Of a DNA stretch of 39,996 nt, positions 39 through 19,989 are shown in pieces; positions within the stretch are counted from its first letter, which is position 1, and each line of letters starts with the position of its first letter. Below the pieces are notes generated by a model, which was not told the DNA's origin, did no database searches, and saw only the letters and a list, made by a program, of their open reading frames with translations. The translations under genes were made by a program, and so were the position numbers. The DNA comes from a virus: positions 1-39,996 of IMG/VR virus record IMGVR_UViG_3300047469_000393. The stretch is one strand, 5' to 3'.

Positions 39-524
39 TTACGACCGCGAATCGGAAACCGTAATGTCTTTGAAGGCCGTAGCGGCGGCTGCATCGGTTA
101 CGGTCACGCGATACACACCGGATGTCGGAGAGTTCTATGGCGGGTTGCCGGTGCGAGTAAAGGATGTGCCCTGCCCGCTTGGACTGTTGATCGTGAAGGT
201 GCTGCCGCTCCGAAACGTCCATGCGTATGTGTAGGGAGGCGTGCCACCGCTAGGGTTAGCGAAGGACGAGGCAAAAATGGCGTTGGCTCCGGGCCAGCTA
301 TTGCCGCTCGCGTCACTGGCTCCAACCGAGAGAGGCCCGGTGCGAGCCGTTCCGTAGAACTGCTACATGTTGATGGACCCCGAGGTAGGGATTGAGGCCG
401 TCGATCCGGTATTCGCGACATACGTCCCACCCCGGTAGAACGAGGTGAGACTGGTGCCACGAGGTGCCAGGAATTCGTCCTGAATCTGCGTGAGCTGGAT
501 GCTCCCGCTAGGTGGTAGCGTCAT
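39..524 (-). CDS. tail structural protein with Ig/PKD-like repeat, two in-frame TAGs
   Basis: This 161-residue reading frame requires TAG at codons 54 (bases 363-365) and 130 (135-137) to be sense; the stop is TAA. The N-terminus (LPPSGSIQLTQIQDEF) is the short motif seen at the start of many phage tail or minor structural proteins. The segment around codon 54 reads TSGSINM-Q-QFYG with Gln, which resembles the usual 'IxMxQFYG' form. The second half (PPYTYAWTF, VYRVTVTD) looks like a PKD or Ig-type beta-sandwich. The start overlaps the tail fibre stop as ATGA, so translation is probably coupled. With TAG as a stop only 53 residues would be made. Exact role in the tail is not known. Confidence 0.75.
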
Positions 525-1564
525 TTGCCCTCCAAAGCCCGTACGCGGGCCGACAAGCCGATTACGCACTCAAGGGCTAGCGATGCCTTGTCTACGCCTA
601 GCGTGCCGTCATGAGTCACATGGACGTACTCAGGGGCAACCTTCTAGACCTCCTGAGCGATCACACCCTGGCCCTCATCGCCCGACTCTTTCCACAGCCA
701 CTCGCAGAACTGAAGTAGGTCAGCCAGTCGGTCGCGAGCTGCCAGTTTCTTGATGGCCTTCTTCTTTCGACGATCCGAGGTAGCGACGAAGTTGGGGCCG
801 GTACAGATGCCGGCGAACGTCCAGTTTGACCCCGTATCGACCGACGCGTGGTTGCCGGCGAACGAGCCCGCAGAGTACTTGGCGAATCCGAGAACGACAC
901 CAGAAGCCGGGTAGTACATGGCTGTCTGGTTGACGCCACCCACCTGAAGAAGGAAGGCGGGGCCGGATCCGTTACAGGCGATGTTGTTGGCGGCAGTTAT
1001 AGCACCGCCAGCCGCGATACCTGCACCCGTCGTCAGCGAGCCGCCGAAGCTGCCACTAGTCGCCGTGATGGGGCCTGTCAGGGTGCCGCCAGTCAGGGGA
1101 AGGTAGCCATTGAGTACCGTCGTCAGGTTGCCGATGTCCGTGGTGGACAACTGCGACCGGGGGCCAACCATCTTCCAGTTGCCCGATCCCTGGCTGCGGA
1201 ACTGGAACACATCGCCCGCCTGGACGGTGATATTCAGGTTATTGGGCAGGACAATGGCGGCTGAGTTGGTCAGGACCGACCCGGCAGCAGGGAAGATCAC
1301 TTCACGCTTGATCCCGGAAGCCGTAGTGCCCAGACTCGTGATCGTGGCCGATCCGGTGACAATGACCGATTCAGCGTCTGAGGTGCCGAGGTCGGTTGTG
1401 GACGCTGCGGCAATGGACGCCGAAGACAGTGCGTTTGTGGAGCGAACGATGGACGATAGGGCGCGCAGGAAGTCATCGAGGCTATTGCCGATGGCGTCCG
1501 ACCCCTAGGGGCTATTGGAGGCGGCTAGCGTCGCCAGATCTGACATTTTTGCAGGAACGGCCAT
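521..1564 (-). CDS. tail fibre with S74-type intramolecular chaperone, two in-frame TAGs
   Basis: 347 residues with TAG at codon 20 (1505-1507) and codon 307 (644-646), ending in TGA. The N-terminus has the 'NSPxGSDxIGxSLDDFLR' attachment motif common in podovirus tail fibres. A repetitive beta-rich centre follows, with LPLTGGTLTGPI. The C-terminal 90 residues are a peptidase S74 chaperone: TSDRRKKK gives the autocleavage region (SD dyad), followed by GVIAQEV-Q-KVAPEYV. The second TAG sits at the Gln of the conserved AQEVQ motif, one of the best indications that TAG is Gln. Termination at the second TAG would remove the end of the chaperone. It is expected to form host-binding trimers. Confidence 0.88.
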
Positions 1565-1565
1565 A

Positions 1566-1781
1566 TTGGACCCTCAACAGATTTTCTTGCGCGTGTTCTT
1601 GGGATTGCTCATCGCCCCAACCATGGCGATCCTGTTTTACGGGACCGCTAGGCTGGTAGCGATGGGCGTGGCGAAGTGGATGCCAGAGTCAGCGCTGAAG
1701 CGACGACTGCTGACGGACACCGAGAGCGGACGACTGGCTTACAAGCCCCGAGGCTCCGGCAGCGACATCCGCAAGGGCTGA
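1566..1781 (+). CDS. small membrane protein on the opposite strand of the late operon
   Basis: A 71-residue frame with one membrane segment (about residues 8-30; FLGLLIAPTMAILFYG) followed by a basic tail (KWMPESALKRRLLTD), a shape seen in small phage inner-membrane proteins. It fills the 124-base gap between the tail fibre and the large ejection protein and overlaps the 3' end of the latter by 93 bases in antisense. The start chosen is TTG at 1566, with AGGA about 11 bases upstream; a GTG at 1590 is also possible. No promoter is evident. It could be a chance antisense frame, but the membrane pattern lies mostly in the gap, where the minus strand has no gene. Confidence 0.45.
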   Translation: MDPQQIFLRVFLGLLIAPTMAILFYGTARLVAMGVAKWMPESALKRRLLTDTESGRLAYKPRGSGSDIRKG

Positions 1782-3614
1782 ACGCTGCTTGGCGGTCATC
1801 TTGGCGATGATGGCCTGCGATTCAGGGGCCTGTGGGTTGGCGATCACCCCGGCCAGCTTGGCCTTGATCGTGTCATTCGTGCCGAACAGCTTGTATAGGG
1901 TGTCTAGAGGCCGCAGGACGGTTCCCAGTAGCCCGCTGTCGGCCAAGCCAGGCAAGCCCAGGCCGTTAGCTGCCTCGCCCAAGAGATTCTGACTGGCGAG
2001 GTTCTGGACGGTGTTGGAGCCTGCGGACTTGCCTACTGAGTCGGCTACGGCCTGGCGGCTAAGGTCATCGCCAATGGTGCCGAGTAGGCCCTGCTGCTGC
2101 GGAGAGAGGATTTTCGCAGCCTGTGCACCCTTCTGCCCCGTAACCTTCTGTGCAATCTGGTCGAGTTGCGAGAGGGAGTTGTTGAAGGAAGTCGGAGCCG
2201 CTACAGCATTGCCGAAAGCGTCCTTGTTGCCCTTCTCCACCCTCCCTAGCAAGCCCTGAAGGATCTCCTACTGATTGATCGGGCCACTAGCCGCCTTGTA
2301 GGCGTCTTTCGCCGCGATGTAGTCCGGGGCAATCTTCCCGATCTCACCAATAAGGTCGTCCTGCGTCTTCCGTACGGATGCCTTCGACACATTCTCAAAT
2401 CCCGGCTTGCCTGCCGAGTTCGCAATATTGTCCAGAGCCAGCTTTACGTAGTGAAGACCCTGCGTTGAACTAAGCGCGTCGCCGATGTTCTGGTCGTTTT
2501 CGGCAGCAAGCCCCTTCGCCATTTCGACGGCCTTCTGCATCGAGGGTCGGTCGGCGAGTTTGAGAAGATCGGCACTCGGCTGGATAGGGGCATCCGTGAC
2601 GGCTTGCGAATACAGCTGATTAGCCGTCTGTGCACGAGCCGCTTTAGCCGCAGCCACATCAGCCGGACTGCCGGCCGCCGCATCGAGAAGACCCACGCGC
2701 GCCTAGTTATTGCCAAGGCGCTGTTCAACGAACTGGTTGGCGATGGCAGGATCGCTATCCGAGACGGCGCGACGCAGCTGGGCAATGCCTGGGTTTCCCG
2801 TCTGCTCGGCGAGGTCAGCCGCGACTCCAGGTACAGCGCTAGGCGTGGCATTCTTCGCCGCATCACCACCGAAGCGGCTTAGCGTGTTGGCTACGATCTG
2901 ATCCTGTCCGCCATCGAAGAACGGAGCAAGTAGTCCTTTGCCGCCACGGTAGGCCGCACCGATGACATTGGACGCCGCCTGACCAAGCAGGCCAGCACCA
3001 GCGCCGATCCCGGTGTTCAGCGCCCGACTACCCTCACCCTAGCCCGTAGCAAGCGGCTGCACGGCACCTAGGGCGGCTCCAGTGGCCGCCGCACCGCGAT
3101 ACCCTGCCGGGACTACGCTGCCTGCCACGCCGGCGCCCTTGAGCAGACCGCCTCCGAGTAGGCCAAGACCCACGTTGCCTGCAATGTCGCCGCCAAGCCC
3201 GGCCTTGGTGTGGATGAGTGCCGAGTCGGTGGCGTTTGCGTCGGCTTGGTCAGCCTTAAGGCTGTCGTAGGCACTTCCGAAGAAATTCGGGTTGCTACCT
3301 TCCGGGGCCAGTGAATGACGGTCAATGAACGCAGGGATCGCGATAGCCGCCTGTTTGGCACCGCGTAAGGTGTCCATGACGGCCTTGCCAGCACCAGCGG
3401 CGAAGTTCTGCGAGTCCGATCCAAGGCCGTTAGCTGCCTTGCCGCCGTCATCCGGGGCGTTTGCGTCGATCAGGTGATACAGGCCAGCCTTCTTGTAGAA
3501 CTCGGCAGGATCGGCATCGGGGTAGTACTTGGTACGAACGGCAGACGCCAGTTTCCCGTCCGGCACGTCGGCATACTGCGGGTACTGCTGTCGGATGTCG
3601 TCGAGTATCGTCAC
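1689..3614 (-). CDS. large ejection/internal virion protein (P22 gp16 position), three in-frame TAGs
   Basis: 641 residues from a GTG start (3614) to TGA, with TAG at codons 192 (3039-3041), 304 (2703-2705) and 449 (2268-2270). Read with TAG as a stop, the gene falls into four fragments in one frame. The N-terminus (MTILDDIRQQYPQY, then KLASAVRTKYYPD) is an 'x-YPQY-x-D' type opening used by many virion proteins. A Gly/Ala-rich stretch around residues 140-250 (GLGLLGGGLLKGAG) could insert in or cross a membrane. The C-terminal half is helical and Gln/Ala-rich. Length and position after a 461-residue protein match P22 ejection protein gp16 (about 609 residues). The ejection role is inferred from synteny, not from a recognised domain. 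Confidence 0.8.
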
Positions 3615-4996
3615 AGGCCAAGTCCAAGCGGGTCTTTCGCGTTGAGGTCAACCTTTCCACCCGAGGGCATCGAGACGGGCGAGGATCCGCCACCTTCACC
3701 CGAGAATTTGTCGAACAGCTTCTTGGCCTTCGGATCGATTACCTGAATGCTGCGCGATCCGTAGCCTAGGGCTTGGTCTGCCTGATCCTGTAGCGCCTGG
3801 AGACGGCCCAGTACGAGTCTGGAGGCTTCCTGATGGGCAGCACGCAGAGCGTCAGCACCGTTGTTAGCGTCGAATATGGCCTTGTTGTGCTCACGGTCAC
3901 CTAGCGCACTCTGTCCGCCCGCGAACGTCTTAGCCAGCTCGTCGCCGACTGCCCCGGATGCGATGTTGAACTTCGACAGATTGGCTTGACCCTTACCACC
4001 GAGTTCCGACGAGAAGAAGTTTGATACGCGATTTACGTTCTTGACGTTGGAGTTGTCCAACTGGTCGATGGTTGAGCCGAACTCGTCCAGATGGTGTGCA
4101 AGGGTATTCAGGGACTTGATCTGCTCGCCAATCTTTCCAGACGTGAAATTTTGCCGTGCAGCGGCCCGGGCCTTGTAGGTGCCCGCATCAAGCGTCGGGT
4201 CAACCTGCTGGGCAACCGAGATAAGGCGCTGCCAGTTCGGATCCATCGCCTGCTTGCCGGTCGGAACCGGGTAGCGGCCGTCAACAATCGACTGGACCGT
4301 AGCTTTGTCCGAGGGCGACAGGGAGTCGATGGTCGGAACGGAACTCGTGTCAGCACCACCGATACCGAGGGCGCGCTTCACATCGTCATCCGTGCCGCCG
4401 TATTGCTTGATCAGGGCGACCTTCTGGGCGAATGCCGACGCAGCCGACTGCTGTGGTGCAAACCGTCCTGCCGTCGCGATGGTCTTCCACGTACCGTCTG
4501 ACTGCTGCTCCTGCGTGACCTTGTTGTTACCCATATCGATTTCACGAGTCTGGGCCGTGTTTAGGTCTCGCTGGGTCTTCTGACCCTGCAACTCGGCGTT
4601 CTTCGACTGGAGTTCGTTCTGGTGAAGCTCCATCGCTGCCTGCGGATCGAACTGGGCCAATGCCGACTGATATCCCGGCATATCGAAGGTGCCATCGGGC
4701 TTGGCGAACTTCAGCGCCAAATCCTGAATCTGCTGGCGACGCTGCATCTACTGCTGCTGGTCATCCATCTGCTGCTGCTGGAACCGCTGCTTGACCAACT
4801 GCTGCCCACCCTACTGGGCCGACTGGATGCCGCCGAGAAGTCCGCCAGACAGCGCCTGAATAGGGGTCACACCCGGCTGGGAGTTGGCCGACAGTGCCGA
4901 GAGGCCAGCCTGAAGGAGGCCCCCCGTAGCCAACGACTTGCGGTCGTCGTCGGAAAGCCCCGGCTGCTGCCCTGTAAAGATGTCCTGCCATGCCAT
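3611..4996 (-). CDS. ejection/internal virion protein (P22 gp20 position), two in-frame TAGs
   Basis: 461 residues, ATG overlapping the previous TAA as TAATG, ending in TGA that overlaps the next GTG. TAG codons are 62 (4811-4813) and 83 (4748-4750). Both lie in a Gln-rich stretch: SAQ-TAG-GGQQ, and DDQQQ-TAG-MQRRQQ. The second TAG therefore sits inside a run of glutamines, strongly suggesting Gln. The rest is alpha-helical and rich in Gln and Ala, with a coiled-coil look at residues 110-150 (AMELHQNELQSKNAELQ). P22 gp20 is 471 residues and lies in the same slot before gp16. Role in DNA ejection is inferred from length and order. Confidence 0.8.
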
Positions 4997-5400
4997 TACT
5001 TCATGCTCCCGAGTAGGCCGAGGCGCGAACCGTTTCCAATGTATCCGGCCTGCCCCTGCTGGACCTGCCCTAGGCGTACCTGCATGGCATGGGCTTGTAG
5101 AGGTGACATCGTTCCCTGCGTGGGCTGAGTGCCCTATGTTGCACCCGCAGACCCCGCCAGCTTCGCCCAGTCCGTACCCGGAGGCTGTTGCTGGCCCTGA
5201 TACTGGTTCTGCTGCATTGCCCACTGGCCGATCTTGGAGAAGTCCAGGCCCTGCGTAGCGGGGGACTGTGCCTGACCGCCACCGAGTACTTGGCTGTAAT
5301 CAGTCGGCTGCTGGAACTGTGCGTATTGCTGCATCGGAGCGGAAGCCTGCGCGTTAGCGTTGGGGCCAGCCAAGCCGGATAGAAAGTCGAAAGTGCCCAT
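4996..5400 (-). CDS. Gln-rich small virion protein, one in-frame TAG
   Basis: 134 residues with TAG at codon 89 (5134-5136), ending TAA. The sequence is Gln/Gly-rich and largely unstructured (MQQYAQFQQPTDYSQVLGGG). After the TAG it continues GTQPTQGTMSP and ends RLGLLGSMK, with the same composition on both sides, so the interruption is not a natural gene end. It sits between two likely ejection proteins and may be a partner of them. No family recognised. Confidence 0.7.
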
Positions 5401-5409
5401 ATGTCCGCC

Positions 5410-6384
5410 TTAGAGGTAGTAGCCAGCCGCACCCATGACGCCACCAGCGACCGCACCGATGGCCGTACCGATGCCCGGAACGACGCTGCCCAGAGCTGCA
5501 CCTGTGGCCGCACCTCCAAGCGCCGAAGTGGCCGCGCCGCCAACCGTACGAGGCTTGTAGGCAGGGTTGGCGCCTGTCGTGGCCGAGCCAGTGAAGTTTC
5601 CGGAGACAGCGTTGAGGGCGTTGCCGTAGTTGTTGATCTTCTGCTGGTCGTAGCCGTAATTCTGCTGATACCAGTCGTTGTAAGCCTGATCGATGTTGCC
5701 CTGGCTGTAGTCCTGCTGGACCTGTCCAAGACTAGCCTGCTGCCCATTGTACTGGGCCTGTAGGGCATTCACGCCGTTGATCGAGTTGGACGCGCCCAGG
5801 ATGTTCTGGGCGTTGTTCTGCGATGCCGCTAGCTGATTCTGGAAGCCCTGCTGCCAGCGATCCGCCTGGTTGTTGTAGTCGGTATAGCGAAGGTTGTCCG
5901 TGTTCGTTGCAAGGCTCTGTGCGAGCTGCTACTGGCTGGCCGTAGCCGCCTGCTGCATCGCGGATCCACCGAATGCCCCGCCCTGCGCAAACTGGGTCGG
6001 AAGCTGGACGCCAGCACCTTGCAGGTACGAGTTGGTGATGTCCCGATTGGAGTCGTTCACCACGCTATCGAGGTACGAATTTGGCCCGGCGAAAGGGCTT
6101 GCCGTCGCGGTTACGTTTTGCGAGCCACGCACCAGATTGTCGAGACCGTTCGTCTGGTTGATGGCCGGAACGGACGTGCCAGACGCGCCCTGCTGGGCAT
6201 TGGCCGCTGCCTGCTGTTGACCCTGCGAGAGATAGGCGTTGAGTTGCCCGCCGTAGGATTGGTAAGGCTTGGCATTCTGTGCCGTGGTCTGTCCTAGGAA
6301 CTACTGATAATCGCTAGCCAGCCAGTCCGGGATTTTCGTCTCGGTGGTGGTGGTCGTATTCTTCGGTGCTCCGCCGCCGCCCAT
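5410..6384 (-). CDS. internal virion protein with C-terminal membrane-active tail (P22 gp7 position), two in-frame TAGs
   Basis: 324 residues ending in TAA, with TAG at codons 28 (6301-6303) and 152 (5929-5931). The first reads SDYQ-TAG-FLGQ and the second ASQ-TAG-QLAQ, so both are flanked by Gln. The middle has Asn/Gln-rich helices. The last 60 residues are a Gly/Ala segment (GAALGSVVPGIGTAIGAVAG) like the glycine-zipper membrane segments found in ejection proteins. It precedes the 134- and 461-residue genes, the slot of P22 gp7. A Gly-rich start (MGGGGAPK) is common in podovirus internal proteins. Confidence 0.78.
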
Positions 6385-6385
6385 A

Positions 6386-6814
6386 TTAAACCTCGTACCA
6401 AGTGGTGATTTTCTTGTATTTCGCCGTCCAGCCTTCTTGGGGGCTGGAGAAGACGACGCGTTCAATGCCAGCCTCGTTAGCAACGTGGCGAGCGGCTTCG
6501 GCCCCTAGGTGGCCGCTGGATTTCTCCACGGAATAGCCGATCCAGACGTTCAGGACGGGGCTGTCCTCGTAGGGGAAGGTGAAAGCCTGGAGAACGGCGA
6601 ACCCGGTGTATGCGCCCTGCCTGTAGCCGACGTACAACGAGGCGTTGCCGGTCATCAGTGCCGTGTAGATATCCTCGGCCAGCCATGGCTCACCGTTGGT
6701 CTCCTTGACCTTCTGGATACCGGGAAGGATAACCGGCCATATCTACCGGATGTTGGCGACGTGATTGTAGGCAATCGTGCCGTCTGCGGTGACGCCTGAG
6801 ATAGGTGGGAGCAT
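6386..6814 (-). CDS. GNAT-like virion-region protein, one in-frame TAG
   Basis: 142 residues, TAG at codon 24 (6743-6745), stop TAA. The fold suggestion is a GNAT-type acetyltransferase: a helix-rich start (HVANIR-Q-IWPVILPG), a strand pair (ASLYVGYRQ, GFAVLQAF), a second strand (VLNVWIGYS), a helix (AEAARHVANEAG) and a strand ending VVFSSPQEGW. Proteins of this kind often lie among podovirus tail genes. I do not see a clear acetyl-CoA loop, so enzyme activity is uncertain. The start overlaps the preceding stop (ATGA). Confidence 0.68.
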
Positions 6815-7119
6815 CAGTTACCCGTAAGTGTGCGAACAGGGAGCCATGTGCCGGGAGTGCCGGCGACGGTGCAGGTCCAGCCGAAGACGAGGTACTTTGA
6901 TCCCGCCGTTCCCAGTTCAGCCGGAGCGTTATTGCGGACGAAATCACCCACCGCGTTCTGGCCCTGAGTGGGGATCGTAGGCCGGGCGTTGTAGACCGCT
7001 GCCGCCCTACCCTCGGTGAGCAGGTTGACCTACGTTGCGGCCTGTTGGAGTAGGTCCGTGAGCCGCAATACCTGCTGCTGCAATTCCTGTGGCAGTGATG
7101 GATTGGTCTGGAGCTTCAT
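6814..7119 (-). CDS. conserved small tail-region protein, one in-frame TAG
   Basis: 101 residues, invisible under the standard code because TAG at codon 30 (7030-7032) cuts it near the start. The first part is a helix rich in Leu and Gln (ELQQQVLRLTDLLQQAAT). After the TAG comes an assembly-type domain (VGDFVRNNAPAELGTAGSKY, then GWTCTVAGTPGTWLPVRT), a pattern common to small podovirus structural proteins. Start and stop overlap both neighbours (ATGA), which fixes the frame. Function unknown; probably structural by position. Confidence 0.72.
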
Positions 7120-8576
7120 TCGGGTGTCGTCGCCAGGATGTCGGGCGTGTAGCCGTTGATACCCACGATGCCAGTCCAGTCCATGCGGACACGGTGCCAA
7201 CGGGCATCCCGGTGGAAGTCGAACCGTCCATTAGCGGCTGCGATGGTCGAGTCCTGCACAGGTGCCGCACCCAAGTCGTAGCGATAGTAGTTCGTTGCCG
7301 TGGACTGGGCCGAGGGTGACGTACGGTAGCGTGGCGTAACACGTTTCAGGAGAGAGTAATTCGTCTCGTCACCCAGGTCGCCAGAGATCAGATACGAGGC
7401 ACCTGGCACACCTGTCAGGCTGTAGAGCTTGTGATCCGTCGCGATGACCCCCGGAACCGTGTTGTCGGCGATCCAGAACGGCGAGTCGTAGGCGATGTTC
7501 GGTAGGTTGTCGTACGTGCTGTAGAGCGTGCCCAAGCCGTCATAGGTGACGTTGCCGGACGAGTACTGGATGACAGCCTCAATGGAGCGGGCGAACTTGC
7601 CCCACTGGTTCGTACGGATATTGTACACCACGCAAATATCGCATATGCCGGTGCTGGCCGTGCTCGGGAAGTACCAGTAAACGAGGTCGCGGGTAAGGTC
7701 GGCACCGCCCTTGATGTTAGCCCGCTGCTGACCGTTGAGGTTGGTGAAGAACCACTCGCGGACCGGGGCACCGATGGAGCGCGGCACCGTGCCATCGTAG
7801 ACGAAGAAGTCAGACGGGCCCACAAAGAAGTGGGACGCACCAATGACCACCACGGCCTCCTGTCCTGAGCAACCGATCTCGCCGGGGATGCGCTGCCACG
7901 ACCAGATCAGCGGAGGGCCGACATACTGGCCCCGGTACATGGATTTCTCCTTGTACGCGATCACATCGTTGCCAAACTCTCGGGCTGCGGTGATCTTGCC
8001 CGGAGCATCCACGAGGCGGGCGTTAGCGGCCTGAGAGCCGATGGCGGGCGTCCATGAGGTCTGGTCGAACAGGTTTGAACACCACCACCCGTCCGGCTGG
8101 TCTCCGAAGCCACCCGTCAGATCCGACCAGTCGAAAGCGAGGACGAAGTTTGCCGCCGAGCAGATAATGGACGCGGCCGGAGCCGTAGCGATATCGGCGA
8201 ACACGGCACCCGGTGCGGCCTACTGGATCTTCTGGGCCCGGTTAGCCGCCAGGATGTTGCTGCCGAACATGGTGAAGCGCCACGGAGAAAGGCCGGTATA
8301 GGCTCCCGCTGCCCGTGTGCGGTCCGTCCAGACGCCACCGGAGATATCCCACAGCTTGGCGTTGGTGCCCGCCACGATGCGTTTGGTGCCGTCCAGCAGC
8401 GTGCCTACGTAGGCCCCCTTGCACGCACTGTCCAGAGCGGCCAATCCCGCATCCACGAGACTGTTGCCCGACGAGAACCCCTTGGTCGTCGGGATGATGT
8501 TGTCGCAATCCACGATCACGCCCGGAGTTGACGGGTCGAGGTCGGGACTGAAGCCGATAAAGGGGATGGCGCTCAT
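7116..8576 (-). CDS. tail accessory/stabilisation protein (P22 gp10 position), one in-frame TAG
   Basis: 486 residues, TAG at codon 119 (8220-8222), stop TGA. Opening residues (IPFIGFSPDLDPSTPG, then DCDNIIPTTKGFS) are typical of the large tail-hub or stabilisation proteins of podoviruses, which then form a beta-propeller-like body (LLDGTKRIVAG; YNIRTNQWGKF; PRYRTSPSAQ). P22 gp10 is 472 residues and lies directly after the gp4-type adaptor, as here. The TAG lies between KIQ-free helical text (ANRAQKIQ) and AAPGAVFADI, in mid-domain, so readthrough is needed for a complete protein. Confidence 0.82.
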
Positions 8577-9175
8577 GCGGTGATGAAGTCCACGCGCGGA
8601 CGGGGCGACGGGCCATACCGGAGCATGTCGTCATTCTTCTTCATAGCGGCAAGGGCCGTCTGGTAGCCCTGCCCGAACAAAGCGGTACGCTGGTCGTCGC
8701 GAAGGTAGATGCACGCCTCCAGAAGCGAACCGTAGAGGTACATCTGGGGCTGGGCGAGGATAAGCCAGTTTTGCGTAGCAGATGCCGACAGACTGGGGAT
8801 GTAGCCGTAGTAGTACAGGCGGTAATCCGTGTCCGCCGCGCCCACGATGTTGATGACGCCATTGACCATCGTGTAGCCAATCGGCAGCACGAAAAGCTCG
8901 GCATTCGTGTCCTGAATCGGGGGAACGGGGTAAAGCTCACGCTCGACACCGTCAAGGCTCACGATCAGGGCCTGAACCTGGCGGAAGTCACCCGGAGGTG
9001 TGATTACACCGCCCACGGACGTGCCCGATACGAGCGCCTACTGAGGGGACAGGCGAAGATCGTTGTTCATCCGGGCTTCGGCGAGCTGGATGAAGGTCGG
9101 GATGATGCCCGCAAGGTCGGCACGCGCGAGGAACTACGCGACGCTTGCTTGTAGGGTCTGGTAGTCATTCAACAT
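8573..9175 (-). CDS. head-tail adaptor, SU10-adaptor-like, two in-frame TAGs
   Basis: 200 residues, TAG at codon 14 (9134-9136) and codon 46 (9038-9040), stop TGA. The N-terminus reads MLNDYQTLQASVA-Q-FLARAD and AGIIPTFIQLAEARMNNDLR, the helical opening of phage adaptor (head completion) proteins. The second TAG follows a Gln (SPQ-TAG-ALVSGT). The body has PGDFRQVQALIVSLDG, and the end has a long helix with YGSLLEACIYLRDD and a catching C-terminus. It would form a dodecameric ring under the portal. The true start at 9175 overlaps the preceding HNH gene by 11 bases. Confidence 0.82.
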
Positions 9176-9605: not shown

Positions 9606-9608
9606 GTC

Positions 9609-11187: not shown

Positions 11188-11200
11188 TTAGCTATCCTCG

Positions 11201-12223
11201 TTATTTAGAGCGGGCCAGCAGGTAGGCCGCTACATCATCGACGTTGCCGGTGCGCTTGGCGCGTTTGGCTAGGTCGTCGGCCCGTTTCTGTGCTGGCGTG
11301 TTTGTGGGGGTATTGGCGTTGCCTGCCTGGACCGCCTTGGGCGGGGTTTTGGCCTGCACTACCTGTTTCTGCTTAACTGCCTGTGCGCGATCCCACATAG
11401 CTGCCTTGTGGGCAATCAGGACGGCGCGATGGTCGATGAGATCCTTCAGTTCTTCGGGGCTGTAACCGTTCGATACGAGGAAGTCAGCCACTTCGCGTTG
11501 TGCTGCTGCTCGTTTCGTCTGGTCACGCCACTCAGGCAACTTCTCCAGTAGCAATTCCTCGTTCTCGCGGAAAGATTCGGTGCGGGCTTTCTCCGCCTCG
11601 TTCTTCTTCATCTACTCGATGGCCGAGTGGTGATGCTGGATTTCGTTGAGGCGAGCCGACTTGGACGCCATTTCCTGCTGTTTTGCGACCCATGCCGCTG
11701 GATCGCTCTGAGCTAGCTCGGCAAGTTTCGCTTGGTCCCCTACAAGCTCCTGATAGAGCACGCTACCCAGGACATTGAGCTGGTTGATACGGTTCTCGTA
11801 TTCCTGCTTAACGAACTGGCGTTCTTGCGTGATCTGCGAGGTTAGCTGTGCAGCTTCCTGCGTCTTGCGGGTGTAATCCTGCTGCCGCATGTAGCCCTTG
11901 AAGGCTTCATCTGCGGTGACTTCCAGTTCCTCACCCTGGACGGTGATTTTCTTGCTCTTGGTCAGCCATTCGTCTTCCTTGGCCTTGGCTGCGGCGGCTT
12001 CCTTTTCCTCCGGCGTGCTCCCGTCGTCGTCCTGCGCTTCAGACTGTTCCTGTTCCGCGGCATCTTCAGCCTCGGCCTCGGCCTCGGGTTCGTCAGTCGT
12101 TGCAGACGCTTCCTACTCGTCTTCGGGATACTTCGGCTCCAGCCGCTTCAGAATTTCGTCTTCCGTCATGCCCTGCGAAGGTTCAATGGCGGTGTTATCG
12201 ACTTCCCCGGTGGGATTGGTCAT
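11201..12223 (-). CDS. scaffolding protein, two in-frame TAGs
   Basis: 340 residues, TAG at codon 37 (12113-12115) and codon 204 (11612-11614), stop TAA. The N-terminal third is acidic and disordered (PEAEAEAEDAAEQEQ). A helical middle region (QEAAQLTSQITQERQFVKQ, residues about 120-200) and a basic C-terminal tail (QKRADDLAKRAKRTG) follow. This acidic-helical-basic plan, and the position between portal and coat, is typical of scaffolds. The second TAG (HHHSAIE-Q-MKKNEAEK) splits one continuous helix, which is inconsistent with a natural end. Confidence 0.82.
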
Positions 12224-12235
12224 GGTGGTTACTCG

Positions 12236-12358: not shown

Positions 12359-12390
12359 TGTCAGCGGGCGAATGAGGCATTCAAGCCCAC

Positions 12391-12681
12391 TCAGAACGCT
12401 ACAGAGCCCCGGCCAGTTGCTTGGGCCACACGCATCTTCAGGGTGGCCTCGGCCATCTTCCCCGACTCGATCAGCGACGACAGGTGCGATTGCACTCTCT
12501 CGGACGCCTTCAGCATCAGGTACAACTTTTCGCGGCCTTCCACGTCTCTTGCCGGGGACTTTGACCATCTTTCCTGTACCTCGTTAGCGAATGTGGCGAA
12601 TGCTTCGGCCAGAAGGGGCTCGGCGAGCAGTTGAGCGGCCTTCTGTCCGCGCTGAATCTCGGCTTCCATCAGGTCGGTCAT
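12391..12681 (-). CDS. portal-adjacent helical protein
   Basis: 96 residues, ATG overlapping the portal stop, TGA stop, no TAG. Entirely helical and charged (LMEAEIQRGQKAAQLL; FANEVQERWSKSPARD), with an Ala-rich centre. Small proteins of this type often follow podovirus portal genes. Function unknown. Confidence 0.62.
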   Translation of the reverse strand: MTDLMEAEIQRGQKAAQLLAEPLLAEAFATFANEVQERWSKSPARDVEGREKLYLMLKASERVQSHLSSLIESGKMAEATLKMRVAQATGRGSVAF

Positions 12682-14885
12682 TCGCGGGCCTCTTGGTAGT
12701 CGGCGTCCGCATCAGCCGTAGACGGGTCTTTCGCGCCCATGGTCTTGGCGGACAGGATCTTGGCCTCGGCGTTGATGCGTGCAATGCGCTCGGCAGAGGC
12801 CAGTTTCATCGCCTCTATGCGCTCGGCCGATTCCATGCTCATCTGGGCCTTCTGCATCGTCAGCTGGGCGTCTAGCTGGGCCTTCTCGCGGGCAACCTGT
12901 ATCGCGCTCTCGGCCTGCATCTGGTTGCGCTGAGCCTCAAGCTGGGTTTCCTGCTGCGACTGCTGCGCCTGGAACTCCTGCTTCATGCGTTCGACTTCTA
13001 CATCACCCTGCTGCTTGGCCTGCTGGAGCTGGCCCTGCTGCTGCAACTCGGCCTGCTTGGCCTGCGAGTCGGCCTGAATCTTGAGGATGGCCGGATCGGG
13101 TTTGTCCTGCTGCTGTGGGCCTTCGCCGGGAGCAGTGAAGTACCGACCTACGTCCTTCTTACCCATCGCCGCCAGGAGGTCCTCAAGGCTGCTGTAGGCG
13201 TTCTGTGGCTGCACGAGGCCGTACTGCGCTGCCTGCTGCTGGATCTGGAGCAGCATCATGGCGTTCTGGATCTGCTTGGCCTTGCTCGACGTGCCGATGC
13301 CGATAGATACGGACATCGAGTAGTTGTTCTTCCATGCCCGGGGATCGACCGCCATCCAGTTGCCGTTGACCTTGATCTGGGCCTCTCGGTCCTGATACTG
13401 GGTCGCGTTCTTGAGCAGCAGGCGGTACACGCGGCTGATAAACGTCTCAGCGATGACACGGGCGATCAGTTCAAGGCGCTGGTCCGCCTGATCCTGAAGG
13501 GTTGCGACGCCCTCCGAGCCGATCTGCGACTTCGACAGTTCTTCGCCAACGAGGCCCTGCGAGAACTGCTTGATGCCGGTGCGATTGTCTCGCACGCTAT
13601 CGAAGTAATTGATACCGGCCTGCGCATTCGGGCCGATATCCGTCGTAGTCAGTTCACGGATGGCGTCCGGGTTATCGGCACGGATGATGCCGCCCGGTCG
13701 CGGGTTGAGCAGATCGTCGAGGTTCACCTGACCGGCTACCACGATCTTCTGCGGGTTGTTCGCCAGGTACAGGTTGTCGAGGTACTGACGGGTCACGGCG
13801 GTCTTGATCCGCTGAATGTCCTCGGTCAGATCCCACATGCTCAGGCCAATGAGCTTGTACGGCATGAGGTTGGGGCAGCACAGGGCAAACTCGTGGTCGT
13901 CAACGATCTCGTTTTCGAAGATGACCGTGCCGGCCTTGACGATGCGGCGATACTCGGCGATGCCATCACCGTCCGCGTCCACCCGAATGTACACGAGCTG
14001 CAACGTGACGACACGTTGGCTCGGGTCCGGGGAATCGTCATCATCGGACACCGTGAAGCTGCCGTCGTAGGATTCGCGCTCCATGCGCTCGCCGTACGTG
14101 TCGCCCTCGTCGTCGCCCGTGGGGATCTCGGCAACCTTACCCGCGTCGTAGCCCATCGAAAGCAGGTCGGAAACGGTGCGCTCGGTGTTCTAGCCCACGC
14201 AGCGCAGTTTCTCGATGTCGCGGCTGTCCTTGCTGAACCAGACTTCCTCGGGTGGCACACCCTCAACCACGATGTTGTGCTGCTTGGTCTTGCGCTTGGC
14301 CGTGACGTTGAACGTCGGCTGAGGCGGAGTGCCATCAGGTCCCGGCATGGCCTGAGCGGGAACCTGCTCGACGATCTCCACGTTCTCATCAACGGCAAGC
14401 GCCTGGACATCCTGTTCCGACAGGTACTCGTAGTGTTCCTCGCGCTCGTCCCACGCTTCCTCGCAGTAGACCTTGACCACGCCCATACGGGAGATCAGGG
14501 CCGACTTGATGGCGTCGTGCAGGACCGTGAAGCCCTGGTTCTTGCGGAACAGCATCCAGCCACAGTATTCCGTGGCGTCGTTGGCATTCTTCTCGTCCTC
14601 GGGGCCTTCTGCTTCAAAGCGGATCACGTCGTCGGCCCCGCAGAACATCCGCATGAGCGAAGGCATGGCCGATTCGACGACTTCCAGCAGATCCTTGCTG
14701 ACGACCTTGGACCGGCCATCTACGTCAGGCGGGGTCAGCTCGTGCGTGGCCTCGCCAAGGTAGTACGCCATAGCCCGCGTACGGTCAGACGACAGCTAGT
14801 CCGCGTAGCCGATGCCGTTCGCCCGCTCGTGGTCGATGAGGGCGCAAAGCTCGCCGTCCGTCATCTTCTTGGATTTCTCTGCCAT
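12678..14885 (-). CDS. portal protein, P22-portal-like, two in-frame TAGs
   Basis: 735 residues (P22 gp1 has 725), ATG overlapping the TerL stop as TAATG and ending in TGA. TAG is codon 30 (14796-14798; GIGYAD-Q-LSSDRTRAM) and codon 232 (14190-14192; LRCVG-Q-NTERTVSDLL). Family landmarks are YYLGEATHELTPPDVDGRSK, MPSLMRMF and GMDLTEDIQ-like SMWDLTEDIQRIKTAV, then FSQGLVGEELSKSQ. The last 200 residues form a very Gln/Ala-rich coiled coil (QAELQQQGQLQQAKQQ), the counterpart of the P22 portal barrel. It forms the dodecameric DNA channel with TerL and the adaptor. Confidence 0.9.
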
Positions 14886-16144
14886 TAAGCGGTCGCCAGT
14901 GTCTTGTAAGTCAGTTTGCCGCCCCAGTCCTCGTTAGAGAGCTTCGGGGCGACGACGTGTAGGTAGCGGAACGCATCGGCACCGTGGCTGAACTGATCGT
15001 GCAGTGGAGCGCCAGGCTCGCCCGTTGATAGCGGCAGCGCACGCCTGTAACGCTTCAGGCACTCGACCAGCGGACCAGCCTTGGCCTTGTCGAAGTAGAC
15101 CTGTCCGAACTGCCTACGGGCCAGCCTGATGCCTTCCTCGATGCCGAGCCGTGGAACGATCGATACCTTCCAGCCCAGCTCCTGCATGATCTCCTGCGAT
15201 GACTTGCCGGTCTTGAAGTCCCGGTTCTCGCCATCGTGCGGTAGCCAGATCGTGCCCCAGTTGTGTTTCCGGGTCTTCAGTTCCGTCGAGTACCAGTCCA
15301 GCGTCTTGTGGTTGCCCTCAACGTACTCGATGACACGGAGTTGGCTGAGGTGCTTCTGCACGAGGATCAGCGTCATCTGGTCATTCCAGCCAAGGTCGAA
15401 CACCACATGGACCTTCAGGGCCGGATCGTATGGAACGTCGCAGATTCGGCTAGGCGTGGCTTCCTTGGCACTGGCTATCTCGTCGGCGTAGATCGCCCCA
15501 GAGACAGCAGGCAGGCATACGCCTTCCCATGTGTGGTCGTACTCGGCCTTGGTCAACATTTCCTTGTCGCGAAGCCGCTCGGCCTCAAGGATGCCGTTGA
15601 ACCACGGGTTGTCCGAGTAGTTCATCTTCACGACGAACGAGTCTTCGGGAGCGTTCTCCACGAAGCGTACGTACGTCGGATCGGTGTCCAGCTCCGGGTT
15701 GAACGTGATCCAGACCTCAGAGCCGTCCTTTCGGATGGTCGGGATCAGGATCTTCCAACTCCGCTCCGTGATCGCCTGGGCTTCCTCGCACCACACGATG
15801 TCCACGCCCTCATAGGACTTCACGGACTCGGCGGTCTGGTCACTCAGGCCAGCAAAGGTGATCTCAGTGCCATTCAGGCCCTTGATGACCGTTGCCTGCA
15901 CCTCGTAGAACGCGCCTAGGCCCATGGACGCTATCTGGTCGCCCAGGAGCTTGTGTACGGAGTCCTTGATGGACTTCTGGATCTCTCGGGTGCAGAGGAT
16001 GCGCAACGGCCTCTCAGCGCCCTACAGGAGCAATGCGCGGGCGTAACCCCAAGACTTGCCGGAGCCTCGCCCGCCATATGCCACCTTGTAGCGATGGGCG
16101 TCGAACAAGCCGCGTAGCTTGGCCGGGAACTCGATGTTACTCAC
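14885..16144 (-). CDS. terL: terminase large subunit, one in-frame TAG
   Basis: 419 residues from GTG at 16144 to TAA. The start overlaps the TerS stop (GTGAGTAA). Walker A is GGRGSGKS (residues 24-31). TAG is codon 41 (16022-16024), in ALLL-Q-GAERPLRILCTRE, between Walker A and the adenine-side strand. Walker B and catalytic Glu are in VDIVWCEEA (about residues 114-121). The nuclease domain begins with VVFDLGWND and closes with HGADAFRYL. Stopping at the TAG would leave 40 residues including only Walker A, so readthrough is essential for packaging. Confidence 0.93.
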
Positions 16145-16496
16145 CCTTAGCCTCAACGAATGATAGCGTCAGGCTAGTCAGAGTGCCGGATATCTCGGTC
16201 TGACTCTTGTCCGTATAGTCATTCCGGAACCTACAGCTAACCTGCTTAGCCCACAGTGATGCGTTGAAGCCAGTCTTTTCGAGACCCTCTTGCCCCTTGT
16301 CCTCAAACCACGCCTGAGCCAAGTCTCTCGCCCGCGTGATTGCGTCCAAAAACTCCGGGTAAATCTCTGCCCAGTTGTGCAATGTCTGCCTAGCCACGTC
16401 CAACGACGCAGCGATCTAGGCGTGGCTCTTGCCAGCACGGCCAAGCTCGATGACCTGGTCGCAGTACTCTGGCAGGTAATCAGTCGGGCGTGCCAT
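16137..16496 (-). CDS. terS: terminase small subunit, one in-frame TAG
   Basis: 119 residues, ATG at 16496, stop TAA. TAG is codon 27 (16416-16418), giving GRAGKSHA-Q-IAASLDVARQTLHNWA. This is the HTH of TerS, and the motif 'xAQIAAxLxVxxxTLxxW' normally has Gln at the TAG site, so it is strong evidence for Gln. The rest is helical (oligomerisation). The start lies inside the end of the GIY-YIG gene (17-base overlap). Confidence 0.9.
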
Positions 16497-17007
16497 CGGG
16501 ATACTCAATTGTTATTTTGTGAGCTGCCATGGCGGTCCTGAATGGACCATTACCCATCTGGCTGCGGCACCTGTTTAGGGCTTCGGAAAAAGTGTCAGTT
16601 ATGTCATGTCCTAGAAGGAACAGCTTGCCTCCGCTAGCGGCCATGAACCGGAGTATCTGGGCCATGATGGCGAGGTGCGTCACGTCGTACCTATCCACAG
16701 GATCGCGAGATAGCGGGCCACACACTCCGCCAGGCAACACGTTGGTCAGCTTGTCCAGGCCGATATGGGCGATCCGCTCAGCCTCGAACCCGTATGCCTC
16801 ACTCTCGTCCGTGAAGTACTTGACGATATCTACTCGGTATTCAAGACCTGCGGCCTAGATTTCCCTGATTCTGTTGCACTTTCGGGACCGGACGCCTGCC
16901 TTGGCATACTTAGCGTGCTCGTATGGCCGGTTCTTTGTACCCTTACCAACATAGAACACCTCATCGTTTCGGGGGTCTATAAGGTCGTACACGAAGAACC
17001 TGCTCAT
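16480..17007 (-). CDS. GIY-YIG endonuclease, one in-frame TAG
   Basis: 175 residues, ATG at 17007, stop TGA. The N-terminus has a GIY-YIG domain of the LEM-3/YhbQ-like type: FFVYDLIDP, then EVFYVGKGTKNRPYEH, with the catalytic Glu candidate in EAERIAHIG. TAG is codon 51 (16855-16857) in RKCNRIREI-Q-AAGLEYRVDI, within the catalytic domain. The second half (HLAIMAQILRFMAAS) is unassigned. It sits just before terminase, a common place for free-standing homing endonucleases. Readthrough is needed for any activity. Confidence 0.8.
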
Positions 17008-17129
17008 AAGGCATCCTGTCACACTATCTATTCACAACTTCAGCTCCAGGCCAATCCCAGAGCCGTTTCATGCGTTCGGAATCTATTCGTGTTCGTGATT
17101 CGTGAACAGCGAACGTTAGTTGGATTGGG

Positions 17130-17543
17130 TCAGGGACTTGTCTCATCACCTGGCCACCAATCGTAGCTAACCTCGCGCTTGCTCAACGGATCCCAGTAGA
17201 TCACCGAGACCTTGCCCTATCCTTCGCCGTCTTTCCGGTCCGTGCTGGCCGAGGCAGAGGCTTGCGCCACAGGTTCGTGTGACGGTTCACTAGCATTTCC
17301 ATGTGTTACCTCGTATGTGGCGGGGGTGGTCCGATTCGAACGGACATCCGAGAACTTTAGAGATTCTGGCTCTACCATTGAGCTACACCCCACTAAACCT
17401 TCCAACCTCAAGCTATCCACGTAGTTCTTCTCGCGGACACTGGCGTAGTAATCCTTCTTGGCCGCAAACACTCGATCCCAGTTATCCGAGAACGTCTGCT
17501 CATCCACACTCAGCGGACGACGGTCATCGCCCTTGCCGGTCAC
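17130..17543 (-). CDS. hypothetical frame spanning the suppressor tRNA, one in-frame TAG
   Basis: Frame from GTG 17543 (overlapping the previous stop) to TGA 17130, 137 codons with TAG at codon 109 (17217-17219). The first 50 residues (RRPLSVDEQTFSDNWDRVFA) look like a real phage protein. Residues 52-75 are only the translated tRNA gene. After it the frame stays open (ASEPSHEPVAQASASA) and, beyond the TAG, gives GKVSVIYWDPLSKREVSYDW. It may be a gene that acquired the tRNA by insertion, or two small genes flanking it. Function unknown. Confidence 0.4.
17318..17392 (-). tRNA. tRNA-Sup(CUA), glutamine-type amber suppressor
   Basis: A canonical 75-base cloverleaf with encoded CCA. Arms: acceptor TGGGGTG/CACCCCC (U1-C72 unpaired, six pairs), D stem GCTC/GAGC with AATGGTA loop, anticodon stem AGAAT/GTTCT, loop CTCTAAA with anticodon CTA (17358-17360), variable CGGAT, T stem GTCCG/CGGAC with loop TTCGAAT, discriminator G73. 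Glutaminyl-tRNA synthetase favours a weak 1-72 pair, G2-C71, G3-C70, G73 and U35, all present. It should decode UAG, probably as Gln, using host GlnRS; no synthetase or release factor is encoded here. It lies within the late operon and shows no promoter of its own that I can see. Confidence 0.93.
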
Positions 17544-17710: not shown

Positions 17711-17877
17711 GCAGCAGGCGAGAAGTTCGCGTTGAGGTAGTAAGCCAGCGCATCCCACGTTTCGAAGCTGACGGACTGAGACACCGGAGACGTTGGCGTC
17801 TCGACGATGGCAAAGCCGTTCATGGTCCGGGTGATGACGACACTGTCGTTGTGGATCCAGGCAGGGATACCGGTCAT
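17707..17877 (-). CDS. conserved small phage protein
   Basis: 56 residues from ATG 17877 (overlapping the lipoprotein stop) to TGA, no TAG. Reads IPAWIHNDSVVITRTMNGF, then SVSFETWDALAYYLNAN. Function unknown; position is between spanin-like genes and the tRNA. Confidence 0.6.
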   Translation of the reverse strand: MTGIPAWIHNDSVVITRTMNGFAIVETPTSPVSQSVSFETWDALAYYLNANFSPAA

Positions 17878-18122
17878 TTAGATTCCTCGTCAGAATTCGT
17901 ATTGGATTTGTATTTGCCCCAGCCGCAGATGGCCTTGCCAGTCTCGTCATGGGTCAGGATTTGTTTGGCCGTGCCATCGGTCAGCACGTCGTCTTGGGAC
18001 ACGTAGATGGGCTTGGACCAGTCACACCCATTAATCCCTGCTCCAGTTGTCGCGCAACCGGCCAGCAGCAGAATCGGGAGGCACATCGCGAACAGGAATG
18101 GTCGGGGCGGGTGGTAACGCAT
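17874..18122 (-). CDS. Rz1-like lipoprotein (outer-membrane spanin candidate)
   Basis: 82 residues with a signal sequence and lipobox LLAGC (Cys23). The mature part (GCDWSKPIYVSQDDVLTDG, then ICGW) matches a widespread phage lipoprotein pattern. It starts 92 bases inside the upstream Rz-like gene in another frame, the usual o-spanin/i-spanin arrangement. It probably ends lysis by fusing the membranes with the Rz-like partner. The alternative is a lipoprotein that simply follows the spanins. Confidence 0.65.
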   Translation of the reverse strand: MRYHPPRPFLFAMCLPILLLAGCATTGAGINGCDWSKPIYVSQDDVLTDGTAKQILTHDETGKAICGWGKYKSNTNSDEESK

Positions 18123-18312
18123 CTACGGTGTCCTCAACCTTCGTTCGCTTCTTGTGGTTCTTCGCTACGACCTTTTCCGTCTTCTGGGCCTGCGCCTGTC
18201 GCTCGCTGGTCACCGCTGAGTGGTGAACCCACAACAGACTTGCTAGCCATAGCGCGAGCCCTACCCCAATGCTCCATACCCATCGCTGCATCATCTTCTG
18301 CCTCGCAGTCAC
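18031..18312 (-). CDS. Rz-like inner-membrane spanin candidate
   Basis: 93 residues, ATG to TAA, with an N-terminal membrane anchor (residues 10-29; WVWSIGVGLALWLASLLW), a charged linker (QAQAQKTEKVVAKNHKKRT) and a Pro-rich end. It overlaps the lipoprotein gene, as Rz/Rz1 pairs do. It is shorter than lambda Rz (153 residues), so the name rests on arrangement and topology. Confidence 0.6.
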   Translation of the reverse strand: MTARQKMMQRWVWSIGVGLALWLASLLWVHHSAVTSERQAQAQKTEKVVAKNHKKRTKVEDTVDALPPAPTIPVRDVPPDSAAGRLRDNWSRD

Positions 18313-18436
18313 AAGGGCCGGGCTGTCTAGCCGGTGCCACGCTAGTGCTGCATGTGTTCGTGTGGGTGGCCTTGCCGCTCGCCAGGATGTAAGCCTCGGC
18401 CAGTCGTTCGTTTAGCCAGTCCCTCGGGTCAACCAT
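18134..18436 (-). CDS. hypothetical frame overlapping the Rz-like gene
   Basis: 100 residues, ATG overlapping the preceding TGA (GGTTGA) and ending TGA. The N-terminal half (MVDPRDWLNERLAEAYILAS) looks coding and is coupled to the small membrane gene. The second half is out of frame with and fully overlaps the Rz-like gene, and its sequence is low-complexity, so the real product may be shorter. Function unknown. Confidence 0.4.
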   Translation of the reverse strand: MVDPRDWLNERLAEAYILASGKATHTNTCSTSVAPARQPGPCDCEAEDDAAMGMEHWGRARAMASKSVVGSPLSGDQRATGAGPEDGKGRSEEPQEANEG

Positions 18437-18524
18437 CGCCAGGGCCGAAGTACATGCGGATGGTGATCACGCCTGCCGCTACGATCAGTCCCAGGGTGAT
18501 CCAGTTACTGATGGTCTGTGCCAT
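18429..18524 (-). CDS. 31-residue membrane protein
   Basis: ATG 18524 to TGA 18429, giving a single membrane helix (ITLGLIVAAGVITIRMYF) and a short tail. It begins inside the end of the protease gene and couples to the next gene. Its size and location in a lysis cassette suggest an accessory holin-type or regulatory membrane peptide, but nothing specific is shown. Confidence 0.55.
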   Translation of the reverse strand: MAQTISNWITLGLIVAAGVITIRMYFGPGDG

Positions 18525-19128
18525 AGCCAACCTCTCGGTACTGCTCGGCGGTGAACTTGAAGGGGATCGAGCCCATGAGCTTGAACTGGATGCCGTTGTA
18601 GTTAACGACAATGGCGTAACTGGTGACTGCCGTTACCTCGCCGTCTAAGTTGAAGATCCCGGAACCCGAATCGCCCGGATATCCATTTACGTCGTAAATC
18701 GTCGTTACCTTGCCATCCTTGTCGTCGTATCCCGAGACGTGACCTTCGCGGTACATGAAATAAAGGAACGCAGGCTGGCCCCAGAGGAACACGACATCAC
18801 CGGGCTTCGCCTCCTTACCCATGCGGGCCCACGTAGTGAATGTTGCATCCACCACAAGCATCGTGTGGTCGTTGCCGTCGTCCAGGCGCTTCTATACGTG
18901 GACTACCTTGTCGTTGACCTTTAGTTCCTTCAGGTCTTCGAAGCAATGTGTCGCTGACAGGATCAGGTGTGGGCCAATGGCCGTACCGCTGCACACCCCA
19001 TTCCCATCCATTTCCAACCGGAGGGCTACTGCTCGACTTCGACTGAGCAGATCGTCTCGCGGTGAATGCGTCGCGCATCCAACCATAGCCACGAGAAGGA
19101 CGAGGTAGAACGCGATTCGCAATTTCAT
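18505..19128 (-). CDS. secreted trypsin-like serine protease, catalytic residues split by in-frame TAG
   Basis: 207 residues. Signal/lipobox-like start (FYLVLLVAMVGC, Cys18) predicts export, perhaps as a lipoprotein. The fold is chymotrypsin-like: SATHC holds the catalytic His (His61), NDHTMLVVD holds the likely Asp (about 87), and GYPGDSGSG holds the nucleophile Ser154. TAG is codon 79 (18892-18894; KVVHV-Q-KRLDDGN), between His and Ser. Stopping there gives no active site at all, so the protease requires readthrough. It lies among the lysis genes. Substrate unknown; it could act in the periplasm during lysis or superinfection. Confidence 0.82.
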
Positions 19129-19137
19129 CTTACGGCC

Positions 19138-19332
19138 TCAACCCGGTAAATCCGGGGACTTCTTGGTGGCCACCGCTTCTGCGACATTCGCTGAGAAGTA
19201 AAGGCCGAGTACCCATGTGGTGTAGGTCACCCACTGGGCGGAATCAATTTGGTGGAAGACAAGGAGGGCGAGGGCGATGAGGTACGCACCTACAGCCATC
19301 TTCAACTTGCTTCGAATGAACCAGTCAGTCAT
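19138..19332 (-). CDS. second small membrane protein of the lysis cassette
   Basis: 64 residues, ATG at 19332 overlapping the endolysin stop, TGA stop, no TAG. Two membrane-like segments: KMAVGAYLIALALLVFHQI and WVTYTTWVLGLYFSANV. A holin or antiholin-type topology is likely but the family is not recognised. A GTG nine bases upstream is an alternative start. Confidence 0.6.
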   Translation of the reverse strand: MTDWFIRSKLKMAVGAYLIALALLVFHQIDSAQWVTYTTWVLGLYFSANVAEAVATKKSPDLPG

Positions 19333-19802
19333 GACATACACAGCCGGTACTCGGCATTGCGCCTGTTGACCAACCCCTGAATCTTATGGCCACCGGCATA
19401 AACCCACATAAGCAGGGCCTTGCAGGATCCGGCACGGTCACCCTCGTTCGCCTTGCGAGCCATCGTGGATCCGCAAAAGGCGGTCACTCCGATGTTGAAC
19501 GTGGTACTTGTGAATGCTGCGGCTTGGTTAACCGCCAGTTTTGGTGATGGAACGCATGACAGGACTCCCTCGGCTGCAATCTACAAGTCGCGCTTGAACC
19601 ACAAGTCGCACTGATACTGGCTGTAGACCCTGCCCAGAACCACCTCTGGCCCCGTATGTCCCGTGCAGGCCGTAGTAACCCCTACAACGTCCGAGTAGCC
19701 CTCGTAGACCGTGCCCTCCCATGGCTGGGTGAATGCTGCGGCTGCGGCGACTACGGCGGCAGTGAAGGCCGCGAGCGCTTTAGGGCTTAGGCGTAACGAC
19801 AC
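19329..19802 (-). CDS. endolysin, GH24 lysozyme (SAR-type start), one in-frame TAG
   Basis: 157 residues from GTG 19802 (inside the holin gene) to TGA. An N-terminal hydrophobic Ala-rich segment (residues 9-24) suggests a signal-anchor-release endolysin. The lysozyme triad follows exactly the E-x8-D-x5-T spacing: Glu29, Asp38, Thr44. TAG is codon 74 (19581-19583; FKRDL-Q-IAAEGV), in the middle of the domain. The C-terminal half has the family's AGGHKIQGLVNRRNAEYRLC end. It cleaves peptidoglycan. Truncation at codon 73 would give half a lysozyme, so release of progeny depends on UAG decoding. Confidence 0.9.
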
Positions 19803-19989
19803 TCTTGCGCTCCAAGAAGGGACGAACCCACTTCCGCCAGAGGAAATCTACGATCATCAGCCCTGAGTACACGCAAGCGAGAATGCTCGCCAGGGTTCCC
19901 CACTAAACGCCGGCTACCGTTGAGCCGACATACGCTACTGTTGGAGCCACTTTTGCTGCATCCACGACGTGATCTTGCCAAAGCATCAT
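19780..19989 (-). CDS. holin, one in-frame TAG
   Basis: 69 residues, ATG at 19989 with AGGAGG five bases upstream, TAA stop overlapping the endolysin start. It has an amphipathic start (VAPTVAYVGSTVAGV), then TAG at codon 29 (19903-19905), then a membrane segment WGTLASILACVYSGLMIVDFL and a basic tail (RKWVRPFLERK), the P21-like holin shape. Stopping at the TAG gives 28 residues with no membrane helix, so pore formation needs suppression. It is the first TAG-containing gene of the leftward transcript. Confidence 0.82.

Follow-up and report, generated by a model that had tools for sequence, protein, structure and literature searches.

Reassignment of TAG to glutamine in late phage genes is already known from large gut phages. 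The code-15 crAss-like, Lak and other large gut phages read TAG as glutamine in structural and lysis genes, retain the standard code in early genes and encode a CUA tRNA, a pattern which the phage analysed here resembles. Peptides proving readthrough of TAG as glutamine have been obtained for two crAss-like phages (PMC9523058), Borges et al. 2022 suggested that recoding regulates late genes (cited in PMC11210395), and a role for recoding in the switch from lysogeny has also been proposed (PMC12386605). A phage-encoded CUA suppressor tRNA is often, not always, present in code-15 phages. In gut phages with theta-ribozyme linked suppressor tRNAs the phage tRNA is similarly thought to activate recoded lysis and structural genes (PMC10879173). 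A related arrangement has been engineered as a suppressor-tRNA feed-forward 'leak dampener', in which, as is inferred for the phage considered here, a TAG-bearing gene and the suppressor tRNA are under common promoter control, which cuts leak; the construct demonstrates that a loop of this type is functional in E. coli (PMC7969014).

The window, the whole stretch of DNA analysed, is an entire IMG/VR viral contig of 39996 bases with a GC content of ~59%. It differs from the large gut code-15 phages in being 40 kb and temperate, in having an integrated relative in Gammaproteobacteria and a tRNA within the late operon, and in usually carrying 1-3 TAGs per gene. Compared with crAss-like and Lak phages, whose genomes are roughly ≥100 kb, the 40 kb contig encodes an integrase, a portal of the SU10-type family and a large terminase subunit (TerL) nearest to those of proteobacterial prophages. 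Among isolates, the Pseudomonas phages of the F116/H66 group, temperate podoviruses (PMC5217972), have a TerL about 53% identical over 95%; nevertheless this is a distant relationship, the window is 40 kb as opposed to about 60-65 kb, and the genus-level similarity in TerL, portal and capsid module that would place it among F116/H66-like podoviruses is lacking, the window TerL being <60% identical to that of every isolate phage. In the partial literature searched, no report was found of recoding in this phage group, of a late-operon tRNA held in one slot or of body exchange with a Ser-like tRNA. Within that scope, the host group, the temperate setting, the operon-embedded tRNA and the body swapping are new.

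TAG usage in late and early genes

The late genes form a leftward run from position 19989 to 39. Translated with code 11 they break up, while with TAG as a sense codon the lysis, packaging and virion genes join into a single run. Curation yielded 24 late gene models, whose 6059 codons include 30 in-frame TAGs, no TAA and no TGA; the models terminate in TGA (15) or TAA (9), never in TAG. An earlier note, made without database searches, had claimed 30 in-frame TAGs in 21 late genes; this held (21 of the 24 models), with the reservation that two TAGs and their genes are doubtful, one being codon 5 of 17874-18137, just ahead of a likely ATG, and the other lying in 17130-17543, an ORF which traverses the tRNA gene. 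Without these the conservative count is 28 TAGs in 19 genes. The claims that late genes end only in TAA or TGA without internal copies of either, and that the full products match known families, also held; for 15 genes, including TerL, portal, major capsid protein, scaffold, adaptor, holin and endolysin, the PHROG or Pfam matches to the readthrough products extend across one or more TAGs.

Reading leftward on the minus strand, the run begins with the holin (19780-19989, TAG at codon 29; phrog_920, 2.8e-10), in which TAG is also found in 7 of 9 relatives compared, followed by a GH24 endolysin (19329-19802, codon 74; phrog_7, 1e-47; PF00959) and a trypsin-like protease (18505-19128, codon 79; PF13365). 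Beyond the tRNA gene lie a GIY-YIG nuclease (16480-17022, codon 56; PF22945), the terminase small subunit (16137-16508, codon 31; phrog_309, 2.5e-24), TerL (14885-16156, codon 45; phrog_3717, 5e-61; PF04466), the portal (12678-14885, codons 30 and 232; PF23899, 2.9e-189) and the scaffold (11201-12223, codons 37 and 204; phrog_3927). The major capsid protein (10252-11187; phrog_1328, 3.3e-91) has TAG at codon 16, as do the distant recoded phages L009 and L013. The run continues with an HNH endonuclease (9165-9605, codon 86; PF13392), an adaptor/virion protein (8573-9175, codons 14 and 46; phrog_2941), a tail accessory virion protein (7116-8576, codon 119; phrog_3287), a small tail-associated ORF (6814-7200, codon 57; phrog_21471), a GNAT-like protein (6386-6814, codon 24; phrog_610) and a DNA ejection protein (5410-6483, codons 61 and 185; phrog_4287). 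Two internal/ejection proteins, identified through relatives, follow at 3611-5224 (codons 138 and 159; the longest start is probably too far upstream) and 1689-3614 (codons 192, 304 and 449), and the run closes with an S74 tail fibre (521-1564, codons 20 and 307; PF13884) and a Hoc-like decoration/spike protein (39-569, codons 69 and 145; phrog_2973). The usual load is thus 1-3 TAGs per late gene.

The remainder of the genome encodes replication genes, a CI-like repressor, Erf/RecE and an integrase. No internal TAG occurs in the 36 early ORFs (5659 codons), four of which end in TAG (22538-23062 (-), 28122-28682 (-), 31631-31957 (+) and 36558-36818 (+)). The first two of these belong to a standard-code stretch on the same strand as the late genes (20002-31000 (-)), which encodes HslV-like and phosphoesterase proteins, DnaB (26026-27348) and a DnaD-like loader (27345-28058). 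TAG is sense in late genes and stop in early genes, and one genome therefore uses TAG in two ways, split by gene class, as the earlier note had claimed in restricting TAG=Gln to the temperate phage's late half. By gene content the phage is temperate, with a CI-like repressor (29244-29900 (+); phrog_8, phrog_2328) and a tyrosine integrase (39016-39996 (+); phrog_1, 4.5e-55) that is 61.5% identical to the integrase of a Dyella prophage. Around the repressor gene are two promoter-like sites with identical hexamers (TTGACA, 17, GATACT) at 29334-29306 (-) and 30338-30366 (+). A weak tRNA-like match (22 bits) at 22205-22260 (-) is seen too in the L003 and L004 records.

Chance does not account for the internal stops, because every one is TAG although TGA triplets are ~2-fold more common in the three minus-strand frames, and because the TAG columns align with glutamine in relatives. 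That the late genes are decaying pseudogenes, or that the contig contains assembly errors, would be consistent with stops within many genes under code 11. This reading is all but ruled out, however, as no internal TAA or TGA accompanies the TAGs, the family matches are full-length and the same pattern is present in a dozen independent contigs and one isolate genome. Alternatively, the host itself may use code 15, in which case there would be no switch; the host of the window is unidentified, which leaves room for this possibility. Against it, four early genes end in TAG, the phage has its own CUA tRNA and a relative resides in a Dyella strain with RF1, so that this alternative can also be virtually dismissed.

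The amino acid inserted was inferred by scoring each residue, at every TAG site with homologues, by an empirical substitution table derived from sense codons of the same alignments. Glutamine is the residue at the TAG columns, a check that the earlier note had proposed, with Q ranking first over the 27 window sites, ahead of K by 11.9 log units, and in 949 of 1000 site bootstraps. Q was best in every phage with ≥12 informative sites, with 91-100% of bootstraps in its favour, while G004, G007 and G010, taken singly, have 6, 7 and 4 TAG sites, too few for a firm residue. In a control drawing the same number of sites from sense codons, the correct residue was recovered in 11499 of 11500 cases and Q was never falsely called. 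Most TAGs align with CAG in relatives, and a TerL glutamine, Q in about 110 of 118 homologues, is encoded by TAG in L007, L103 and the Dyella prophage. TAG is therefore very likely glutamine in late genes, a conclusion based on comparative columns without peptide or charging data. Homology that continues past the TAGs, this residue inference and a CUA tRNA support the one-codon reassignment, as opposed to random decay, asserted by the earlier note.

The suppressor tRNA, its slot and its distribution

A suppressor tRNA gene with anticodon CUA and an encoded CCA, absent from the earlier note, was found within the late operon at 17318-17392 (-) (ARAGORN; Rfam RF00005, 55.5 bits, gathering 29). 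The gene is situated between the lysis genes and the terminase genes, shortly before the latter and ~2.6 kb downstream of the holin, the first late gene. A sigma-70 consensus scan of the minus strand from 16-26 kb detected no promoter of its own, a weak scan which does not exclude one. The acceptor end has a U1.C72 mismatch, G2-C71, G3-C70 and G73, and in its weak 1-72 pair, G2-C71, G73 and U35 the tRNA matches the tRNA-Gln identity set (PMC9976931); this is shown for the sequence, while charging is inferred. The ARAGORN label of tRNA-Pyl results from the CTA anticodon alone, and pyrrolysine was rejected as the cloverleaf is normal and the columns indicate glutamine. In contrast to the theta-ribozyme systems (PMC10879173), the window tRNA has no adjoining ribozyme match among Rfam families, the theta family's presence in Rfam 15 being uncertain, and its CCA is encoded. 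The leak dampener (PMC7969014) differs in being engineered with the Leu tRNA supP and a hammerhead ribozyme, whereas the window system is natural, would insert glutamine and has no Rfam ribozyme nearby.

The tRNA gene lies in frame inside a small ORF, a doubtful gene (17130-17543 (-), GKGDDRRP...NWDRVF ... IYWDP..WWPG, TAG at codon 109). The ORF recurs in L003-L008, L041, L103 and L110, with an N-terminal GKGDDRRP part and a C-terminal Y[IV][DN]..TG..WWP part, and in all relatives its reading frame keeps the same register with the tRNA 3' end. A motif search of non-recoded relatives found no uninterrupted form. A second tRNA begins three bases after a long-arm CUA tRNA in L008 (9367-9441) and in the L103 record (L194:18209-18283) (Gln TTG, Asn GTT).

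Searching IMG/VR with TerL returned 80 loci, and full records were read for the nearest. Late in-frame TAGs are present in L003-L009, L013, L041, L115, L103 and L110, all of which have a CUA tRNA. L014 and L017, short fragments, carry a CUA tRNA with no TAG in the compared stretch. In-frame TAG is absent from more than 130 other relatives, apart from one site in L061, and the non-recoded relatives that were scanned yielded no CUA tRNA. Thus, this stray TAG aside, relatives with a CUA tRNA are recoded and those without are not. L103 and L110 are recoded with a TerL not closely related to that of the window; comparison of the sequences alone suggests that the packaging module was swapped while recoding and tRNA were retained. 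A phage TerL with 66% identity to the window's is found on a 5.9-kb contig filed as a Micrarchaeota MAG (L114), likely through binning contamination.

L115 is a prophage in the isolate genome of Dyella sp. SG609 (NZ_JAAZQJ010000005.1), a cultured gammaproteobacterium whose genome encodes glnS (GlnRS) and prfA (RF1), both above cut-offs. The part aligned with window genes contains 32 TAGs, and across 58 informative TAG sites in its late region Q was obtained in 1000 of 1000 bootstraps. A degenerate CUA tRNA occupies the same slot (L115:9020-9090). TAG use is far heavier in this prophage (contig 5, about 391-432 kb), with 6 in TerL and 8 in the portal. Its att site is not marked by an 18-base repeat of a tRNA-Met which adjoins another integrase.

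Exchange of tRNA bodies in one slot

At least five tRNA bodies occupy the one genomic slot, one of which is tRNA-Ser-like with a long variable arm. Type A is found in the window, L004 and L110, type B in L003, L005, L006 and L041, type C (94 bases, long variable arm) in L007, L008 and L103, type D in L013, L014 and L017, type E in L009 and type F, with a short D arm, in the Dyella prophage. In all of them positions 1 and 72 are mismatched and G2-C71 and G73 are present, which makes the acceptor ends Gln-type; pair 3-70 is G3-C70 in the window and C3-G70 in types C and E. Type D is nearest to Dyella tRNA-Gln; type C is nearest to Tyr or Ser tRNAs, its D arm being almost the same as that of Dyella tRNA-Ser(GCU). 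Between the window (17318-17392) and L003 (9385-9459) the flanks are near-identical and the tRNA bodies differ, from which we infer exchange close to the tRNA ends. The types do not track the TerL tree, and together with the near-identical flanks this indicates that the tRNA has been exchanged in place.

Changes at acceptor-stem pairs 1-72 and 3-70 turn an amber tRNA-Ser into a glutamine acceptor (PMC9976931). The long-arm tRNAs resemble a natural case of this conversion, charging again being inferred, but carry C3-G70, not G3-C70. In L007, L008 and L103, TAG might alternatively now encode serine, the glutamine signal being a relic; the similarity of the type C D arm to tRNA-Ser(GCU) and G73, which also fits serine, favour this reading. 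Q, however, exceeds S by 16-25 log units in these three phages, TAG occurs at the conserved TerL glutamine, and the 1:72 pair is A.C whereas bacterial tRNA-Ser conserves G1-C72 (PMC9976931). A serine reading is consequently very improbable, and glutamine remains preferred.

Recoding as a putative gate on late genes

The tRNA lies in the same late operon as the TAG genes, and late proteins are therefore expected only once the operon is on. In the proposed mechanism, the tRNA would be processed out of the late mRNA, would receive glutamine from host GlnRS (mismatched 1:72, G2-C71, G73, U35) and would compete with host RF1 at UAG. In a lysogen and early in infection, UAG would truncate late proteins, so that leaky late transcription would yield truncated products, while with the operon truly on the tRNA would accumulate and full virion and lysis proteins would be made. 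As operon transcription and the operon's own tRNA would both be required, this constitutes a coherent feed-forward (AND) gate, which would guard lysogeny and delay lysis. We consider it likely that code-15 recoding acts in this manner; no RNA, charging or peptide data exist and readthrough is inferred.

The distribution of TAGs is relevant here. TAG reaches 21 of 28 homology-supported late genes, more than the 13.6 predicted by random draws of Gln codons (p=0.0002) or the 15.7 predicted by random draws of codons (p=0.004), and the first TAG occurs, at 0.30 of gene length, earlier than the 0.44 given by random Gln draws (p=0.001). The trend is shared by most relatives, with L008 (G006) lacking the 5' bias; the relatives are not independent and gene starts were picked mechanically. 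In a distant comparison with L007, TAG was kept at 10 of 22 sites versus 6 of 41 for the equally rare CAA, and TAGs in holin, major capsid protein, scaffold and portal persist in several relatives. We infer that selection retains one or more TAGs towards the start of every late gene, where they would serve as a translational gate.

A neutral origin would require only that a suppressor tRNA was acquired and that TAG drifts as a synonym of CAG in late genes, TAG being absent from early genes simply because their translation precedes production of the tRNA. The alignment of most TAGs with CAG and their ~8% share of late Gln codons (30/374) are in its favour. We regard it as unlikely, since TAGs occur in more genes and nearer to starts than random Gln draws, the persistent TAGs noted above are retained across several relatives, and recoding endures while the tRNA body changes. 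Against the gate, the HNH and GIY-YIG genes and small ORFs also carry TAG, as drift would equally produce, and the 6-8 TAGs in TerL and portal of the Dyella prophage would need very efficient suppression, which with a degenerate tRNA is unexplained.

A bolder reading, which we would as soon doubt as accept, is that a small temperate proteobacterial phage family maintains a natural AND gate. In this reading the tRNA slot would be fixed, bodies of different origin, one tRNA-Ser-like, would have been repeatedly swapped in and have converged on Gln acceptor ends, and TAGs would have been selected near the starts of nearly all late genes, blocking leak of virion and lysis proteins in the lysogen.

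So far the case for late-gene control by recoding has rested mainly on large gut phages that are uncultured. Standard gene calling fragments the late genes of such phages, and recoding has thus probably been overlooked outside the gut. The tRNA swaps provide a natural experiment on putting glutamine identity onto foreign tRNA bodies, and a prophage in a cultured Dyella strain, with a 40-kb genome, makes recoding control directly testable.
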